Origin: a virus
Virus record (IMG/VR): IMGVR_UViG_3300031274_000004
Span: 1-48,561 of that record
Reading direction: 5' to 3' (one strand)
DNA length: 48,561 nt
Shown here: positions 4,925 through 43,143 of the stretch, in pieces
How positions within the stretch are numbered: the stretch's first letter is position 1
Layout: every line of letters begins with the position of its first letter
The notes under the pieces: model-generated
The model's input: only the letters and a program-made list of their open reading frames with translations
Database searches by the model: none
Told to the model about the DNA's origin: nothing
Position numbers and translations under genes: made by a program

Positions 4925-5173
4925 ATGAGCGATAGCCCGATGTTACACCAGGAGAAGGACGACTCCCCGATGTTGGGGGGCGAGAAGTGGCAGGGTGATG
5001 TATGTCCATATTGCAATAAACGCGTACTAATGGATGGGGTTGTATATTTTCATTTTAGTGACCTGCCCGTTATTTGTCATGAGGACTGTATGCCGCCATT
5101 GGAAACTGACGCGCCCAGCCGTTGGTATGGCGCAAAGCGAGGAAGACGAAAGACCAGATGGTTACACGCCTAA
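4925..5173 (+). CDS. Small Cys-rich protein (zinc-ribbon-like)
   Basis: 82 aa from ATG 4925, which follows a GGCGGACG leader resembling that of three genes downstream; an upstream in-frame start at 4907 lacks a ribosome site. DSPML appears twice near the N-terminus. Residues CPYC and CHEDC could bind one zinc ion. The tail is very basic (RGRRKTRW), compatible with nucleic-acid binding. Not recognised as a named family. Confidence 0.6.
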   Translation: MSDSPMLHQEKDDSPMLGGEKWQGDVCPYCNKRVLMDGVVYFHFSDLPVICHEDCMPPLETDAPSRWYGAKRGRRKTRWLHA

Positions 5174-5202
5174 CGGCGAAAGGAGCGCGGACGGATGAGC
5201 GA
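5167..5202 (+). repeat. 36-bp gene-start repeat, copy 1
   Basis: Thirty-six bases ending in GGATGAGCGA are identical to 5785-5820. The repeat includes the ribosome site (AAAGGAGC) and the first three codons of the gene it precedes. A shorter related copy lies at 5481-5502 and a weaker one at 4914-4933. Confidence 0.9.
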
Positions 5203-5493: not shown

Positions 5494-5772
5494 ATGAGCG
5501 ATAGCCCTAAATTCAAGATAGCAAAAACCTGCGAAAATTGTATTTATGCGGAACCAATTCTACACGCAGAAAAAAATTGGTTCAGAGATATAACCGATCC
5601 ACAATATTGGTGCACGCTACACAATATAAATTTCAAACAGCGCCAGTTATTACCGGGGTGGATGTATTGTGACGATCACGAGGCCATTGAACAATATCAC
5701 TTTTGGGGAACCATGACAGATGAAACACTTACCGACTGGATACTCAAGGCCCCAAAAAGTAAGGATAACTAG
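5494..5772 (+). CDS. Cys-cluster protein of a phage-internal family (CxxC...CDxxE)
   Basis: 92 aa. The pattern CENC...YWC...YCDDHE matches two further genes in the window (7421-7621 and 9293-9502), which share a Cys pair, an aromatic-Cys pair in mid-protein and a closing CDY/CDD-x-E. This indicates a small metal-binding domain copied within the genome. The ribosome site comes from a shorter copy of the leader GGAGCGCGACGGATGAGCGA. Role unknown. Confidence 0.65.
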   Translation: MSDSPKFKIAKTCENCIYAEPILHAEKNWFRDITDPQYWCTLHNINFKQRQLLPGWMYCDDHEAIEQYHFWGTMTDETLTDWILKAPKSKDN

Positions 5773-5784
5773 CGCTAGGTCACC

Positions 5785-5820
5785 CGCCTAACGGCGAAAG
5801 GAGCGCGGACGGATGAGCGA
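5785..5820 (+). repeat. 36-bp gene-start repeat, copy 2
   Basis: Exact copy of 5167-5202. The two copies bracket the genes at 5195-5482 and 5494-5772, so the pair looks like the product of a segmental duplication or a cassette insertion. Confidence 0.9.
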
Positions 5821-6550: not shown

Positions 6551-6573
6551 CCGCCCGCCCGGTGACGGCGGGG
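6551..6573 (+). repeat. GC-rich hairpin repeat, copy 1
   Basis: CCCGCC (6554-6559) pairs with GGCGGG (6567-6572) around loop CGGTGAC. The same element recurs at 6984-7000, 7586-7602 and 8223-8241, each time shortly before a ribosome site. This copy is non-coding. Confidence 0.8.
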
Positions 6574-6589
6574 AATAGAGGGAAGCAAG

Positions 6590-6994
6590 ATGAAATTTGG
6601 AAAGCTAAAGTTTAGAATCCGATCAAAGTGGTGGAGTACATTCTATCGAGTCAAGACGTTTATCAGGAATTCATCGGTGTACCTGTCGCGGCTGGCTCAT
6701 GGAATACAGTGTGAACATGAAGGGTGCAAGGAACGTGTGCACTTGCTCCAATGTCATGTTAACCCATTCGATTTAGATGAGGACAAGAATATCGACTGGC
6801 TCTGCTATGAGCACGCCAGCGATCATGGTTTTTGTTCAAGTTGCGGAATATTTTGCGCCGGTATCGAAAGTTTTGATTTCGGGCGGTATGCTGGCTACTG
6901 CGATAACTGTGCATCATATTTTCAGTCGGTCGATGATGAGATGTGGACAATGGCTGAAGATGATTATGATGATGAGTGGGCAACCGCCCAGTGA
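6590..6994 (+). CDS. Cys-rich hypothetical protein
   Basis: 134 aa. A basic N-terminal helix (about 1-40, rich in Arg and Lys) is followed by CEHEGCKERVHLLQCH, then LCYEH, FCSSCGIFC and YCDNC, enough Cys/His for two zinc sites, and a highly acidic tail (EDDYDDEW). It looks like a small treble-clef or zinc-ribbon protein. The stop codon lies inside the second copy of the GC hairpin repeat. Not recognised. Confidence 0.65.
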   Translation: MKFGKLKFRIRSKWWSTFYRVKTFIRNSSVYLSRLAHGIQCEHEGCKERVHLLQCHVNPFDLDEDKNIDWLCYEHASDHGFCSSCGIFCAGIESFDFGRYAGYCDNCASYFQSVDDEMWTMAEDDYDDEWATAQ

Positions 6995-7000
6995 CGGCGG
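6984..7000 (+). repeat. GC-rich hairpin repeat, copy 2
   Basis: CCGCC (6984-6988) pairs with GGCGG (6996-7000) around CAGTGAC. It contains the TGA stop of the gene at 6590-6994, so here the element is read in a different frame from copies 3 and 4. Confidence 0.75.
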
Positions 7001-7013
7001 GGAGGAGTGAAGG

Positions 7014-7420: not shown

Positions 7421-7621
7421 ATGAAAGCGAATTTTCGTAAGTTACCACAACCTAAAAAGGCTTGCAGGACGTGCCGATACTTCTCTGTTATGGGTGCGCA
7501 TTGGAGGTGCAGACGACTGGGTACTCTTCATGCTTGGGAGGTTAGCCAACCAACACAGTTTATATGTGATTATTTCGAGTCCAAGCCGCCCGGTGACGGC
7601 GGCGGCGGAGGCGAGGAGTGA
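7421..7621 (+). CDS. Cys-cluster protein of the CxxC...CDYxE family
   Basis: 66 aa. KACRTCRYF...HWRC...FICDYFE places it with 5494-5772 and 9293-9502. Its last residues, PPGDGGGGGEE, are encoded by the third GC hairpin repeat, meaning the repeat has been read into the protein's end. ATG 7421 follows GAAAGGATAAGAAA. Confidence 0.7.
   Translation: MKANFRKLPQPKKACRTCRYFSVMGAHWRCRRLGTLHAWEVSQPTQFICDYFESKPPGDGGGGGEE
7586..7602 (+). repeat. GC-rich hairpin repeat, copy 3
   Basis: CCGCC (7586-7590), loop CGGTGAC, GGCGG (7598-7602). It codes for PPGDGG at the end of the gene at 7421-7621 and lies just before the GGAGG that serves the next gene. Confidence 0.8.
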
Positions 7622-7944: not shown

Positions 7945-8249
7945 TGACCGATGTACCACAACCAAAGCGTGGATTTAAAATCAAGATGTTCGGAACTGTT
8001 CAGCCCGAACATGAGCCAATCTGGTTTGAGTGTAACGTGCCAGACATTATTGCAGATATTCAAACAGCTTGCGAGTCTGGAATGGGTACGCTTCACCTTC
8101 CAACTACTAGCAAATTCTATATTTTATCGCCATCAATCCTGTATGATTACAATGAGATTCTTGAGTATCTCCGCAGCTTTGAGGAAGACCTATCAGGCAG
8201 GGAGCCGGGACTCGGTGGACGCCCGCCCGGTGACGGCGGGGAAGGATAA
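7941..8249 (+). CDS. Hypothetical protein
   Basis: 102 aa, ATGA-coupled to the previous gene. No recognisable domain; the middle has a helix (PDIIADIQTACESG) and short strands. The C-terminus, GRPPGDGGEG, comes from the fourth GC hairpin repeat in the same frame as copy 3. ATG 7944 is an equally good start. Confidence 0.6.
   Translation: MMTDVPQPKRGFKIKMFGTVQPEHEPIWFECNVPDIIADIQTACESGMGTLHLPTTSKFYILSPSILYDYNEILEYLRSFEEDLSGREPGLGGRPPGDGGEG
8223..8241 (+). repeat. GC-rich hairpin repeat, copy 4
   Basis: CCCGCC, loop CGGTGAC, GGCGGG, immediately followed by GGAAGGATAAG, the ribosome site of the gene at 8254. Sequence is nearly identical to copy 1. Confidence 0.8.
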
Positions 8250-10032: not shown

Positions 10033-10088
10033 CTGCCTTGTCTAGGGTAGCTCCCGAAAAGCGGTCACCCTAACCGCCGACAAGGCAG
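10033..10088 (+). ncRNA. Nested hairpin element before the terminase genes
   Basis: CTGCCTTGTC (10033-10042) pairs with GACAAGGCAG (10079-10088), a perfect 10-bp stem. Inside it TAGGGT (10043-10048) pairs with ACCCTA (10067-10072), and CCG (10054-10056) with CGG (10062-10064) around AAAAG. It lies in a 230-base gene-free stretch with no open frame of note. It could be a structured leader RNA or the packaging recognition (pac/cos) region beside terminase; the sequence alone does not decide. Confidence 0.55.
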
Positions 10089-10119
10089 CGGCAAGATAGG
10101 GGCATCTAAGGGAGATGCA

Positions 10120-10617
10120 ATGTCTGTTATTTACGGCCTTCGGGCAAAAGATAGTGATCAGTACTTTTACATAGGTAGCACCAGGCATACGGCAAATCGG
10201 CGACTGTCGGGGCACTTATCTGCCATCCGGCATGGCACGAAGAGAAATCGCCATTTTGTCAACAAGGCTAATAAAGTAGGGCTTGACAACATTGTAGTGG
10301 ATGTGCTTGAAGAAACCACCAGAGAGCAGCAGTTTGAGCGGGAAAAGTGGTGGATACAAGATATGTTGGCACAAGGTGTCAATCTGGTCAACCGAGTTTA
10401 TGTTGACATTCACCCACCGCACAAAGAAGAACAGCCGCCGCTCACTGAGGAGAAATGGCTACAAGCGCTACAGTTCTATGTAGATTACAAGCAAGGGCGG
10501 AAAGGGCACGCCAAGAATCCCGAAGATGAGGGAATCTATCAGGCTCTATCGAGTGCATTGTTTCTGATTATCGACCAAAAGATAGGGCTTAATGACAATA
10601 GTGTCCCCTTCGACTAA
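10120..10617 (+). CDS. GIY-YIG endonuclease
   Basis: 165 aa. N-terminal GIY-YIG domain: VIYGL (3-7) and FYIGST (16-21), conserved Arg 27, His 32 and a Glu in QQFEREKWWI (71-80). Domains like this make single- or double-strand cuts and are typical of homing endonucleases; this one is free-standing, since no intron core was seen around it. The C-terminal part is charged and of unknown role. A GTGTCCC/GGGACAC hairpin (10601-10626) overlaps its stop. Position beside the terminase genes is a frequent site for homing genes. Confidence 0.85.
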   Translation: MSVIYGLRAKDSDQYFYIGSTRHTANRRLSGHLSAIRHGTKRNRHFVNKANKVGLDNIVVDVLEETTREQQFEREKWWIQDMLAQGVNLVNRVYVDIHPPHKEEQPPLTEEKWLQALQFYVDYKQGRKGHAKNPEDEGIYQALSSALFLIIDQKIGLNDNSVPFD

Positions 10618-39564: not shown

Positions 39565-39636
39565 TTGCGAGGACGGGAATCGAACCCGCGAATGTCGGCT
39601 CATGAAGCCGGTGAGTCACCACGTCTCTACCTCGCA
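39565..39636 (-). tRNA. tRNA with CAT anticodon (Met or Ile2)
   Basis: Minus strand, 72 nt. Acceptor TGCGAGG/CCTCGCA (7 bp), D arm GAG/CTC with GG in the loop, anticodon arm CCGGC-TTCATGA-GCCGA with one mismatch, variable CATTC, T arm GCGGG-TTCGATT-CCCGT. No encoded CCA. U1-A72 and G37 are unusual. The CAT anticodon could read AUG, or AUA if modified to lysidine. Confidence 0.85.
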
Positions 39637-39911
39637 TGGCTCCGGCTCTCCGGACTGGTCACACCACTATCGCAACGTGTCGCGGCTCGTCACTCCGAGC
39701 GGGTACACCACTTCGAGGTATCTAGAAACTCAGGTAGGTGTCACCTGATCCACTTCAAGTGGGATCATCCCTCGGCAGCTAACTACTGCCCACCTCCGAA
39801 TAATCGGATTAACTCCATTGTACACCACCTCCCCCCAAAACACAATTAGAATGCGGCTTGTATCTTGTTCCGAACATTTCATGAATTCGCCAGAATTGGT
39901 GCTATTTGCTG
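39637..39911. other. Gene-free stretch with short palindromes
   Basis: No credible gene. AGGTGTCACCT (39735-39745) and CCACTTCAAGTGG (39750-39762) are adjacent palindromes, and CTCGTCACTCCGAG is a small hairpin (39686-39699). These may be binding sites upstream of the tRNA or the control promoter. Confidence 0.4.
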
Positions 39912-39940
39912 TTGACAATTATACAATTGTATAGTATGAT
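39912..39940 (+). promoter_or_regulatory. Consensus promoter with palindromic operator
   Basis: TTGACA (39912-39917), 17-base spacer, TATGAT (39935-39940). The spacer contains the 14-bp perfect palindrome TATACAATTGTATA (39920-39933), placed to block RNA polymerase when bound. It drives the operon starting at 39978. Confidence 0.85.
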
Positions 39941-39977
39941 ATAGACAGTTAAGTAAACCAACACACAGGAGCACAAA

Positions 39978-40412
39978 ATGAACTGGCAAATGGCAGTAGC
40001 AAAAGCAACAGCAAACAAGCGGGACAGCAAGAGCAGCGAGATTGAATGGGTAGACTATATAGCATCAGCTTACTCAACCTGGAAGAAAGCAACGTTAGAC
40101 AACGGGCTTGAAATAGCGCTTATTCCAGTGCCCGGTGGACATTACAAAATCAGCACCCGCACAGGTAACCGCCCTGGCCTAGAGCCGAAAGCGAAATACG
40201 ATCTCAATACGGCCAAACTAATCGCAGGAAACTTACAAAAGCATCTTCCACTAAATGATCGCCGGACTTGGTGCGATAACAGCGCCGGGATGAGCGAGGG
40301 TTGCTTAACCGAAGAGACACACAAGCACAACGCCGAAGCTGCCGATAACCTGGTACTCAAAGACAAGACAGCATACGGCGATTACGAGCCGGGGGAGCGC
40401 CGGTTCTTCTAA
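39978..40412 (+). CDS. Hypothetical protein, first gene of the repressible operon
   Basis: 144 aa, 38 bases after the promoter, ACAGGAGCACAAA upstream. Helical and strand segments (MAVAKATANKRDSKSSEIEW, ALIPVPGGHYKISTRTGNRP). Several charged residues, no membrane segment. Not recognised; being first behind a repressed consensus promoter suggests an early or induction-related function. Confidence 0.65.
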   Translation: MNWQMAVAKATANKRDSKSSEIEWVDYIASAYSTWKKATLDNGLEIALIPVPGGHYKISTRTGNRPGLEPKAKYDLNTAKLIAGNLQKHLPLNDRRTWCDNSAGMSEGCLTEETHKHNAEAADNLVLKDKTAYGDYEPGERRFF

Positions 40413-40414
40413 TC

Positions 40415-40462
40415 AACCTAGACTCTGGGGAGAAGCCTCACTTCTCCCCAGACCTGTGGGTT
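40415..40462 (+). ncRNA. Intergenic RNA element E1
   Basis: TCTGGGGAGAAG (40424-40435) pairs with CTTCTCCCCAGA (40441-40452), closed outside by AACC/GGTT. Related to E2 and E3 by AACC-x-AGACTC and GTTAAT borders but with a different inner stem sequence. Confidence 0.65.
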
Positions 40463-40486
40463 AATTAGTCAATAGGAGTATAGCAA

Positions 40487-40867
40487 ATGTTCGTGACAAA
40501 CGAAAGGCACATCGTAGAGGGGAAGCGCATCCCCATTGATCTACTAGAAGCATTGATGGAGAACCACGCCATACGCGGCAACATGTGGATCAGCCGCGAG
40601 GATGCCCGGAAGCAGCATATTGCAATGTCTCAGGACAAAGAGCGCACTGTAATGCTGTTAGAGTTAGGTGATCTGTATTGGACGCGGGGATACCGGTTGG
40701 GATTTACCTCACCAACCGAGGCTACCCATCGCCTGCCAGACAATGCGCTAGCATGGATGGAAGTTAGCCACGATATGAACGGTATTCAAAAGTTTAAGCT
40801 AGCCTATGCCTATCACCTGCCCATGCGGGTGTCAACTCACCCGGCAGATGTAGCCCGCAATCGCTAA
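40487..40867 (+). CDS. Hypothetical protein
   Basis: 126 aa. No known motif; strands and helices alternate (VMLLELGDLYWTRGYRLGFT, LAWMEVSHDMNGIQKFKLAY). ATAGGAGTATAGCAA precedes ATG 40487. Between RNA elements E1 and E2 in the same operon. Confidence 0.65.
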   Translation: MFVTNERHIVEGKRIPIDLLEALMENHAIRGNMWISREDARKQHIAMSQDKERTVMLLELGDLYWTRGYRLGFTSPTEATHRLPDNALAWMEVSHDMNGIQKFKLAYAYHLPMRVSTHPADVARNR

Positions 40868-40871
40868 CCGC

Positions 40872-40921
40872 TTAACCCAGACTCAGCCCCTCACACGCTG
40901 GGGGGCTGGCCTCTGTGTTAA
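40872..40921 (+). ncRNA. Intergenic RNA element E2
   Basis: TTAAC/GTTAA, CAGA/TCTG and CAGCCCC/GGGGCTG stack into one interrupted stem with an 11-base loop. Begins seven bases after the stop of the previous gene. Confidence 0.7.
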
Positions 40922-40946
40922 TCAATCAATCATTACAGGAGATACC

Positions 40947-41117
40947 ATGACCACCAAGAACGAACTTCAGAACGCAGTAGCTCAAGCCAAAGCCCGGTTA
41001 GCCTGGATAGAGGCGCGAGGAATCAAGAACCAGTGGCAGCAGCAGACCTACGAAAGCGCCGTGCACGAATTAGAGAGCGCGGAGAAGCGGTTAGCGAAGG
41101 CCACCCGGAACGACTAA
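40947..41117 (+). CDS. Small helical protein, 56 aa
   Basis: ATG 40947 with ACAGGAGATACC upstream. The product is one long charged helix (LQNAVAQAKARLAWIEARG, HELESAEKRLAKATRND), probably a coiled coil. Flanked by RNA elements E2 and E3; its TAA is the first base pair of E3. Confidence 0.6.
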   Translation: MTTKNELQNAVAQAKARLAWIEARGIKNQWQQQTYESAVHELESAEKRLAKATRND

Positions 41118-41172
41118 CCCAGACTCAGCCGGGGAAGGAAAGGAAAGGTTCCCCCGCTGGTCTCTGAGTTAA
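41115..41172 (+). ncRNA. Intergenic RNA element E3
   Basis: TAAC/GTTA, CAGA/TCTG, CAGC/GCTG and GGGGAA/TTCCCC form the same interrupted stem as E2, with a different inner sequence and a purine loop (GGAAAGGAAAGG). Confidence 0.7.
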
Positions 41173-41187
41173 TCGAAAGGAGCGACT

Positions 41188-41370
41188 ATGATCGACCTAC
41201 GCGACGTGATGACCGTCCAAGAAGTAGCGGACACCTACGGGATAACCCGCGACACCGTGCACAAGGCAATCCAGGACGAACGGATACCCGCCCGACAGAG
41301 TGCCAAAACCTGGCTTCTCCGGCGGGAAGACGCTCAGGCCCGATGGGGCGAAAGGAACGAAGATGGCTAA
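41188..41370 (+). CDS. Excisionase-like MerR-type HTH protein
   Basis: 60 aa. MTVQEVADTYGITRDTVHKA then IPARQSAKTWLLRREDAQA is the compact HTH_17/excisionase fold. Such proteins bind DNA and control excision or transcription. No integrase was seen, so a regulatory function is more likely. CGAAAGGAGCGACT precedes the ATG. Confidence 0.75.
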   Translation: MIDLRDVMTVQEVADTYGITRDTVHKAIQDERIPARQSAKTWLLRREDAQARWGERNEDG

Positions 41371-41572
41371 TCATTATAGTGCTAATGACAAAGACGGGAA
41401 GCGCTGGGTAACTGATATCCCCGGAGAGCTTGAGAACCTTATCGACTCAAGATACTCAACAGAGCGCCAGGCCGCTTTAATCAATTGTGAGATTGCTTTC
41501 CAATTGAAGCGGATAGCCGATATTCTTGAGAACTTCGCGGTCAACGGTGTGCCCGTCGAGAAAGTCCCGTAG
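41363..41572 (+). CDS. Small hypothetical protein
   Basis: 69 aa from ATG 41363, overlapping the previous gene by 8 nt; AAGGAACGAAG upstream. N-terminus SANDKDGKRWVTDIPG and a helix (AALINCEIAFQLKRIADILE). Last gene of the operon, followed by the terminator form of the RNA element. Confidence 0.6.
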   Translation: MANHYSANDKDGKRWVTDIPGELENLIDSRYSTERQAALINCEIAFQLKRIADILENFAVNGVPVEKVP

Positions 41573-41592
41573 TCTCTTCTCCCCCAGACACA

Positions 41593-41613
41593 GCCCCGCT
41601 CCGGCGGGGTTTT
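41593..41613 (+). terminator. Intrinsic terminator (element E4)
   Basis: CCCCGC-TCCG-GCGGGG followed by TTTT, with CAGACACA before and TGTGTTG after, so it resembles E1-E3 but with a T run. Ends the rightward operon. Confidence 0.8.
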
Positions 41614-41653
41614 GTGTTGCAACAAAAAAGCGCGGTTGCCCGCGCCTCTGGAT

Positions 41654-41809: not shown

Positions 41810-41837
41810 ATGATCCCCCTAAACTATTTCGTAACCT

Positions 41838-41877: not shown

Positions 41878-42210
41878 TTAGGATTTCAGTGTTCGGATGT
41901 ACTGAACAACCTTGAGCTTGTTGTCTGGCGACAGCATACCCAGCCCTTCCAGGATGAGCAGGTCAATGGGATCGTAACCGTTGGCGGGTCTGGAAGTAAC
42001 CAGGCCGATTTTGGTATAGAATTCGTTAGTATCTCGCCCCAGCCCTTTTATGGCTTTCTCTAGCGTGGCAATCCTGACCGGTTGCTCATTGAGTATCTTG
42101 TTAATGCTTGACTGGGCAATCCCGGCGGCATGAGCAAAAGCTGCCTGGGTGTAGTCGTTCTCATCCTGAATAGCTTTGAAGTAGGCGGCGGTTTTTCTCA
42201 GGTCGTGCAT
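41878..42210 (-). CDS. XRE-family repressor
   Basis: 110 aa. Residues 20-45 are a HTH (TQAAFAHAAGIAQSSINKIL), the rest a short helical dimerisation domain (DLLILEGLGMLSPDNKLKVV). Divergent from the gene at 42337, so it is the CI-like arm of a switch. GGGGAGAAGAT precedes the ATG. It is the best candidate to bind the palindrome at 39920; that link is inference. Confidence 0.82.
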   Translation of the reverse strand: MHDLRKTAAYFKAIQDENDYTQAAFAHAAGIAQSSINKILNEQPVRIATLEKAIKGLGRDTNEFYTKIGLVTSRPANGYDPIDLLILEGLGMLSPDNKLKVVQYIRTLKS

Positions 42211-42263: not shown

Positions 42264-42292
42264 TTGTGTTGCATTACAAAATAGTTTATAAT
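42264..42292 (+). promoter_or_regulatory. Promoter of the Cro-position gene
   Basis: TTGTGT (42264-42269), 17-base spacer, TATAAT (42287-42292), 45 bases before ATG 42337. A minus-strand TATAAT (42245-42250) for the repressor lies alongside, so the two start regions are close to each other. Confidence 0.6.
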
Positions 42293-43069: not shown

Positions 43070-43143
43070 GCCGGTGAAGCTCAGATGGAAGTAGCAAGTG
43101 TCCTGTAAACACAAGGCTGCGGGTTCGACTCCCGCCACCGGCT
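43070..43143 (+). tRNA. tRNA-Thr (TGT)
   Basis: 74 nt. Acceptor GCCGGTG/CACCGGC, D arm GCT/AGC with GG, anticodon arm GTGT/ACAC with loop CCTGTAA, variable AGGCT, T arm GCGGG-TTCGACT-CCCGC. Position 33 is C, where nearly all tRNAs have U. No CCA. A GGGAGC/GCTCCC hairpin (43043-43065) lies just upstream. Confidence 0.85.

Follow-up and report, generated by a model that had tools for sequence, protein, structure and literature searches.

The operon and its intercistronic elements

The window, meaning the whole stretch of DNA that was analysed, is an IMG/VR virus record of 48,561 nucleotides from an uncharacterised phage. A promoter at 39912-39940 leads into five small genes, A to E, and on to a terminator at 41592. 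One hairpin element lies at each of the junctions A/B, B/C and C/D, and none lies between D and E, which overlap. The features are listed below; bit scores are those of a covariance model of the element family.

39912-39940, plus strand: good sigma-70 promoter (TTGACA-17-TATGAT) with an overlapping palindrome, TATACAATTGTATA, a probable operator
39978-40412, plus strand: gene A, 144 aa, no family match
40415-40465, plus strand: element E1 (AACCTAGAC ... CTGTGGGTTAAT), between A and B; inner stem 40424-40452, 12 pairs, loop CCTCA; 67.3 bits
40487-40867, plus strand: gene B, 126 aa, no family match
40872-40922, plus strand: element E2 (TTAACCCAGAC ... CTCTGTGTTAAT), between B and C; inner stem 40883-40909, 11 pairs, loop CACGC; 73.1 bits
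40947-41117, plus strand: gene C, 56 aa, no significant family match; common to the relative (95% identity)
41115-41173, plus strand: element E3 (TAACCCAGAC ... CTCTGAGTTAAT), between C and D, starting at the stop codon of C; inner region 41125-41160; 82.3 bits
41188-41370, plus strand: gene D, 60 aa, excisionase-like helix-turn-helix protein; common to the relative (93%)
41363-41572, plus strand: gene E, 69 aa, ATG at 41363 picked by eye; no convincing family match
41592-41616, plus strand: ordinary intrinsic terminator of the operon, found by terminator scan; not a member of the hairpin family

The assignment of gene D comes from matches to HTH_17 (E 6.4e-8) and to the excisionase family phrog_2655 (E 3.2e-8). 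The operator TATACAATTGTATA overlaps the promoter both in the window (39900-39945) and in the relative described below (L005 4520-4580), where a second, near-identical copy (TACAATTGTATAG) was seen just upstream of the first. Other possible operators in the window are the two arms of a 15-nt inverted repeat (93%; 41820-41834 and 42274-42288) that flanks a repressor-like gene on the minus strand (41878-42210). The only tRNA that ARAGORN reported in the window was a tRNA-Met on the minus strand (39565-39636); a tRNA-like stretch at 43070-43143 was found by Rfam (49.6 bits) and not by ARAGORN. Rfam also gave an int-alpA RNA (RF02996) at 10035-10101, above the gathering score at 44.3 bits, with a gene start near 10120 just downstream.

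A single relative, IMGVR_UViG_3300035211_000086 (G001), was found by scanning viral contigs and bacterial genome contigs. It is mosaic with the window, with similar replication genes, a 403-aa protein (90% nucleotide identity) and the hairpin operon. The operon of the relative reads A'-R1-C-R2-F-R3-G-R4-D-H-terminator, where R1 to R4 are four copies of the element, one per non-overlapping junction. Across the two phages, one element is found at seven of seven non-overlapping junctions and nowhere else in either genome. The original prediction had put an element after each member of the transcription unit. This is correct wherever neighbouring genes do not overlap, in the window and in the relative alike; the overlapping genes at the end (D/E or D/H) are without one. 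The elements persist while the two phages differ in gene content. E2 and R1 are identical across 51 bases.

Folding gave long hairpins for all three elements of the window, and the common frame that had been read in these three spacers was confirmed. The outer stem (AACCCAGA / UCUGNGUU) is kept, and the inner stem differs in sequence with its pairing intact. The 5' arm is AACC(C/U)AGAC, with the variant AACCCAAAC in R3, and the 3' arm is NCU(C/G)UGNGUUAAU. Of the eight positions at which the outer arms oppose each other, exactly one is mismatched in each copy: position 4 in E2, E3, R1 and R4, and position 7 in E1, R2 and R3. A small internal loop of one base against two (one against one in R3) separates this outer stem from an inner stem of 11-12 pairs, which carries one internal mismatch in E3/R2 and in R3 and ends in a loop of 5 nt in most copies. 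All the elements have the same orientation; each lies at the stop codon of the upstream gene or directly behind it, just ahead of the next ribosome-binding site. Two features had gone unremarked in the original prediction: one copy is a recombinant of two others, as described below, and the 5' arm of four copies (E3, R2, R3 and R4) takes in the UAA stop codon of the gene upstream. The stop codon lies 2, 6 and 9 bases ahead of the arm in E1, E2 and R1, respectively. In the window, the distance from GUU to the start codon is 17-27 bases, with a Shine-Dalgarno sequence in between.

Other repeats lie at gene boundaries as well. The left early operon has a second boundary family, CCGCCCRGTGACGGCGGGGA, a short GC stem-loop that precedes the starts of small genes; in the relative its stem is kept and its loop varies. 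Its copies are as follows.

6552-6575, window
6981-7004, window
7583-7606, window
8220-8243, window
near 5599, 6885 and 7180, relative (G001)

Two further contigs that were found via this second repeat, G002 and G003, were unrelated. In addition, two unrelated small genes have their ribosome-binding site and start codon within a 43-nt repeat (GGTYACMCGCCTAACGGCGAAAGGAGCGCGGACGGATGAGCGA; 5160-5202 and 5778-5820 in the window, 95% identical).

Pairing, covariation and chance expectation

The frame AACC[CT]A[AG]AC...CT[CG]TGNGTTAAT occurs three times in the window and four times in the relative, and it did not occur in any of 60 random genomes with the dinucleotide make-up of the window. The inner hairpins were compared with dinucleotide shuffles, which folded as well in 0 of 5000 cases for E1 (z -5.0), 2 of 5000 for E2, 3 of 5000 for R4 and 26 of 5000 for R3. 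The inner hairpin of E3 is weaker and only suggestive on its own (267 of 5000). Per 20,000 random spans of the genome, the number folding as well was 4 for E1, 1 for E2, 173 for E3, 40 for R3 and 3 for R4. Folding energy gave no preference for one strand, as the antisense folds of E1, E3, R2 and R3 are equally or more stable. An excess of G-U pairs over A-C mismatches in the sense strand, counted by eye, was set aside as evidence since the folds themselves permit G-U.

The inner stems of the three spacers had been described as covarying. Three unaligned paralogues alone are too few to judge this, but the claim holds once the copies of the relative are added. Alignments A1 and A3 were used, and the MAFFT alignment, A2, was left out (its loop gaps were misplaced). 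Among the five copies that align best, the share of paired cells is 92.6%, where the cells are not independent events because the copies are related and paralogous, and double-sided changes are seen in 8 of the 19 pairs. Pairing fell to about 52% when the register was shifted by one column. The covariation score of these five copies was 0.521 compared to 0.202 in shuffles, and none of 500 shuffles reached 0.521. The picture holds with all seven copies, yet 27 of 500 shuffles then reach the number of pairs with any double-sided change. RNAalifold independently returned the same stem with 8 double-sided pairs. The covariation evidence is carried by about five distinct inner stems; with only two phages, the independent changes are therefore few, and the paralogous copies share ancestry.

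A covariance model built without R3 recovered R3 (38.6 bits, E 4e-6). Apart from the known copies, it yielded across the two phages and the remaining contigs only weak antisense readings of these copies (19-24 bits) and matches with E around 1 or worse. The elements also change more slowly than the coding sequence around them: between matched copies of the two phages, they differ at 1 of 98 positions, compared to 28 of 342 in genes C and D (Fisher p 0.009). The double-sided changes, the recovery of the left-out copy and the slower change all support the earlier claim of selection for an RNA fold, and they indicate that the hairpin family is real and under selection.

The terminator at 41593-41613 had been counted as a fourth element, which we reject. 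It scored 0.9 bits with the family model, compared to 67-82 bits for E1-E3, and it has neither AAC nor GTTAAT. The terminator of the relative has lost the CAGAC part, whereas AAGCCCCGCTCCGGCGGGGTTTT is kept. The likeness to the 5' arm is within chance: allowing up to 3 mismatches, the 13-mer has 14 occurrences in the window, where 9.6 would be expected. TTTT follows directly after the stem of this terminator. The score of 0.9 bits and the absence of the frame-like part in the relative therefore place it outside the family.

No match to the hairpin elements was found among the Rfam 15 covariance models, either at the gathering score or at a lenient E-value, and neither the nucleotide sequence nor the operon proteins matched known phages. 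Bacterial genome contigs that were scanned with the element pattern and the conserved 403-aa protein gave none. Fifteen further viral contigs matched the element pattern, of which 13 were folded; these were without the hairpin, and the best model score was about 16 bits, with E of 1 or worse. A literature search on repeated intergenic phage hairpins turned up only papers on ESAS and on T7 RNase III sites. The family, known from two phages, is apparently undescribed so far.

Gene exchange and the proposed function

E3 resembles R2 from the last part of gene C onward, through the 5' arm and all of the inner stem as far as GCTGG. From CTCTG on it resembles R4, through the ribosome-binding site and into gene D, with 1 difference in 52 bases. 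E3 is evidently a hybrid of R2 and R4 with the crossover inside the 3' arm. In the relative, genes F and G lie between these two parent elements, so that a single exchange between elements took out or brought in two genes, and the hairpin that resulted is complete. The other exchanges, A/A' and E/H, took place at gene borders without an element, so the elements are not required for swapping.

Placement, fold and recombination can be read from the sequence. As to what the hairpins do, it is most likely that they process or stabilize messages, roles that the original prediction had named and that make sense. We give about an even chance to the full proposal that the three spacers are one family of intercistronic mRNA hairpins that stabilize or process messages and double as gene-swap junctions. 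The hairpin on the transcript would separate neighbouring messages: the upstream gene would gain an exonuclease-resistant 3' end, either directly or once RNase III or another host RNase specific for double strands has cut, and the next ribosome-binding site would be left clear. Each gene would therefore be expressed alike regardless of its neighbours. Since the arms are alike at every junction, they could also provide short homology for the gain or loss of genes without breaking the operon, and E3 records one event of this kind. The duplex length and mismatches fit RNase III only loosely. A related proposal gives the hairpins two jobs, with the mRNA processed or insulated gene by gene and, on DNA, the constant arms serving as exchange points from which a hairpin is rebuilt out of two halves; we consider this possible but doubtful.

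Another possible explanation is that the elements are cassette boundaries at the DNA level, that is, palindromes kept for the exchange of small genes by recombination, with the RNA fold incidental. The exchange would proceed by annealing of short homologies or by a recombinase that acts on folded single strands, as with integron attC, and the layout of conserved ends, small internal loop and variable core is indeed like that of attC (PMC8946536). The elements that persist while gene content differs, and the clean R2/R4 hybrid with its crossover in the 3' arm, would fit as well. However, no tyrosine or serine recombinase was found in either phage record, the A/A' and E/H swaps are at borders that have no element, and the elements, all in a single orientation, always have the stop codon on one side and the ribosome-binding site on the other. 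Nor would homology alone account for a core whose sequence changes with its pairing intact, and we regard this explanation as unlikely. The hairpins could instead act in translation control, joining the stop codon with the next ribosome-binding site or binding a phage or host protein, so that neighbouring genes are coupled or co-regulated. The stop codon inside the border of the 5' arm in four copies and the Shine-Dalgarno sequence directly 3' of the 3' arm are consistent with this, and the fixed geometry and constant outer stem would suit a binding protein. But in E1, E2 and R1 the stop codon precedes the arm, so the link is a loose one. Within the window, anything from 17 to 27 bases separates the arm from the start, and no candidate RNA-binding gene was recognised in the operon. 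Translation control seems quite improbable.

The original prediction had also raised stepwise attenuation, in which the hairpins are partial transcription terminators, some polymerase falls off at each of them and expression drops along the operon. The stems are GC-rich, like that of the real terminator of the operon, and a terminator scan at lax settings accepts E2, R1 and R4, whose tails are C-rich (CCTCTGTGTT, ACTCTGTGTT), which gives the idea weak support. E1, E3, R2 and R3 fail the same scan. The tails begin with C and contain G (CCTCTGTGTT, CCTGTGGGTT), and the bases that would have to serve as the U-tract are taken up by pairing in the outer stem. The true terminator nearby has its TTTT right after the stem and stands outside the hairpin family. 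We consider partial termination very unlikely.

Phage operons of tiny genes turn over fast, and the question is how newcomers get joined and expressed without breaking the unit. A junction RNA that survives gene exchange, with one recombinant visible, would be a concrete and testable answer.

Comparison with known systems

Integron attC sites likewise occur one per small gene and have conserved ends, a small internal loop, a variable terminal structure and changing gene content beside them (PMC8946536, PMC2727003). No PF00589 match, as for an integron integrase, was found in G000 or G001, records that may be incomplete, while 14 of 14 control genomes matched. The end boxes of attC have the consensus RYYYAAC / GTTRRRY. 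The 3' end of the hairpins is GTTAATC or GTTAATT in all copies, with T at the third R, and the 5' box fits only E2, R1 and R3. The attC exchange point is G/TT, and the switch in E3 lies upstream of GTT, between GCTGG and CTCTG. With no integrase and with misfits in both end boxes and crossover position, membership in attC was rejected.

RNase III cuts the polycistronic early mRNA of T7 at five sites into mono- and dicistronic messages (PMC4858673). Such sites, R1.1 among them, lie between the genes on the phage mRNA and are irregular hairpins, about 50-60 nt long (PMC4858673, PMC8708148); the window hairpins have this layout and would work in a similar way. The T7 sites are cleaved; the window hairpins may be, and they have about 19 pairs, interrupted by mismatches. 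The outer-arm sequence of the window hairpins is strictly kept, which is not known to be a requirement of RNase III.

The extended start-associated sequences (ESAS) of cluster K mycobacteriophages are 17-bp imperfect inverted repeats with a subcluster-specific consensus and a spacer of 4-13 bp (PMC3203893). They are usually followed by the 13-bp SAS, GGGATAGGAGCCC, near the start codon, and their function is unproven (PMC3203893, PMC12699233). Both ESAS and the window hairpins are imperfect inverted repeats with a variable middle that lie just upstream of a subset of non-structural phage gene starts, in wide intergenic gaps and in one orientation, with the left arm better kept than the right. 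In contrast to ESAS, the conserved arms of the window hairpins are 8-9 bases rather than 17 bp, the inner stem changes in sequence, the rest of the stem has no shared sequence, and the hairpins occur in one operon only, where each non-overlapping junction has one. SAS was absent between the 3' arms and the starts, as read by eye. ESAS are the nearest described repeats by layout, and the window hairpins fail the ESAS sequence definition; they would offer a parallel in another phage group to these unexplained mycobacteriophage repeats.

Short boundary sequences have also been proposed for phage mosaicism, on the basis of sequence homology only (discussed in PMC3029335). The window hairpins share with these the idea of short common sequences at gene borders that enable modular exchange, and E3 shows such an exchange directly. 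They differ in that the boundary also keeps a fold while its sequence changes.
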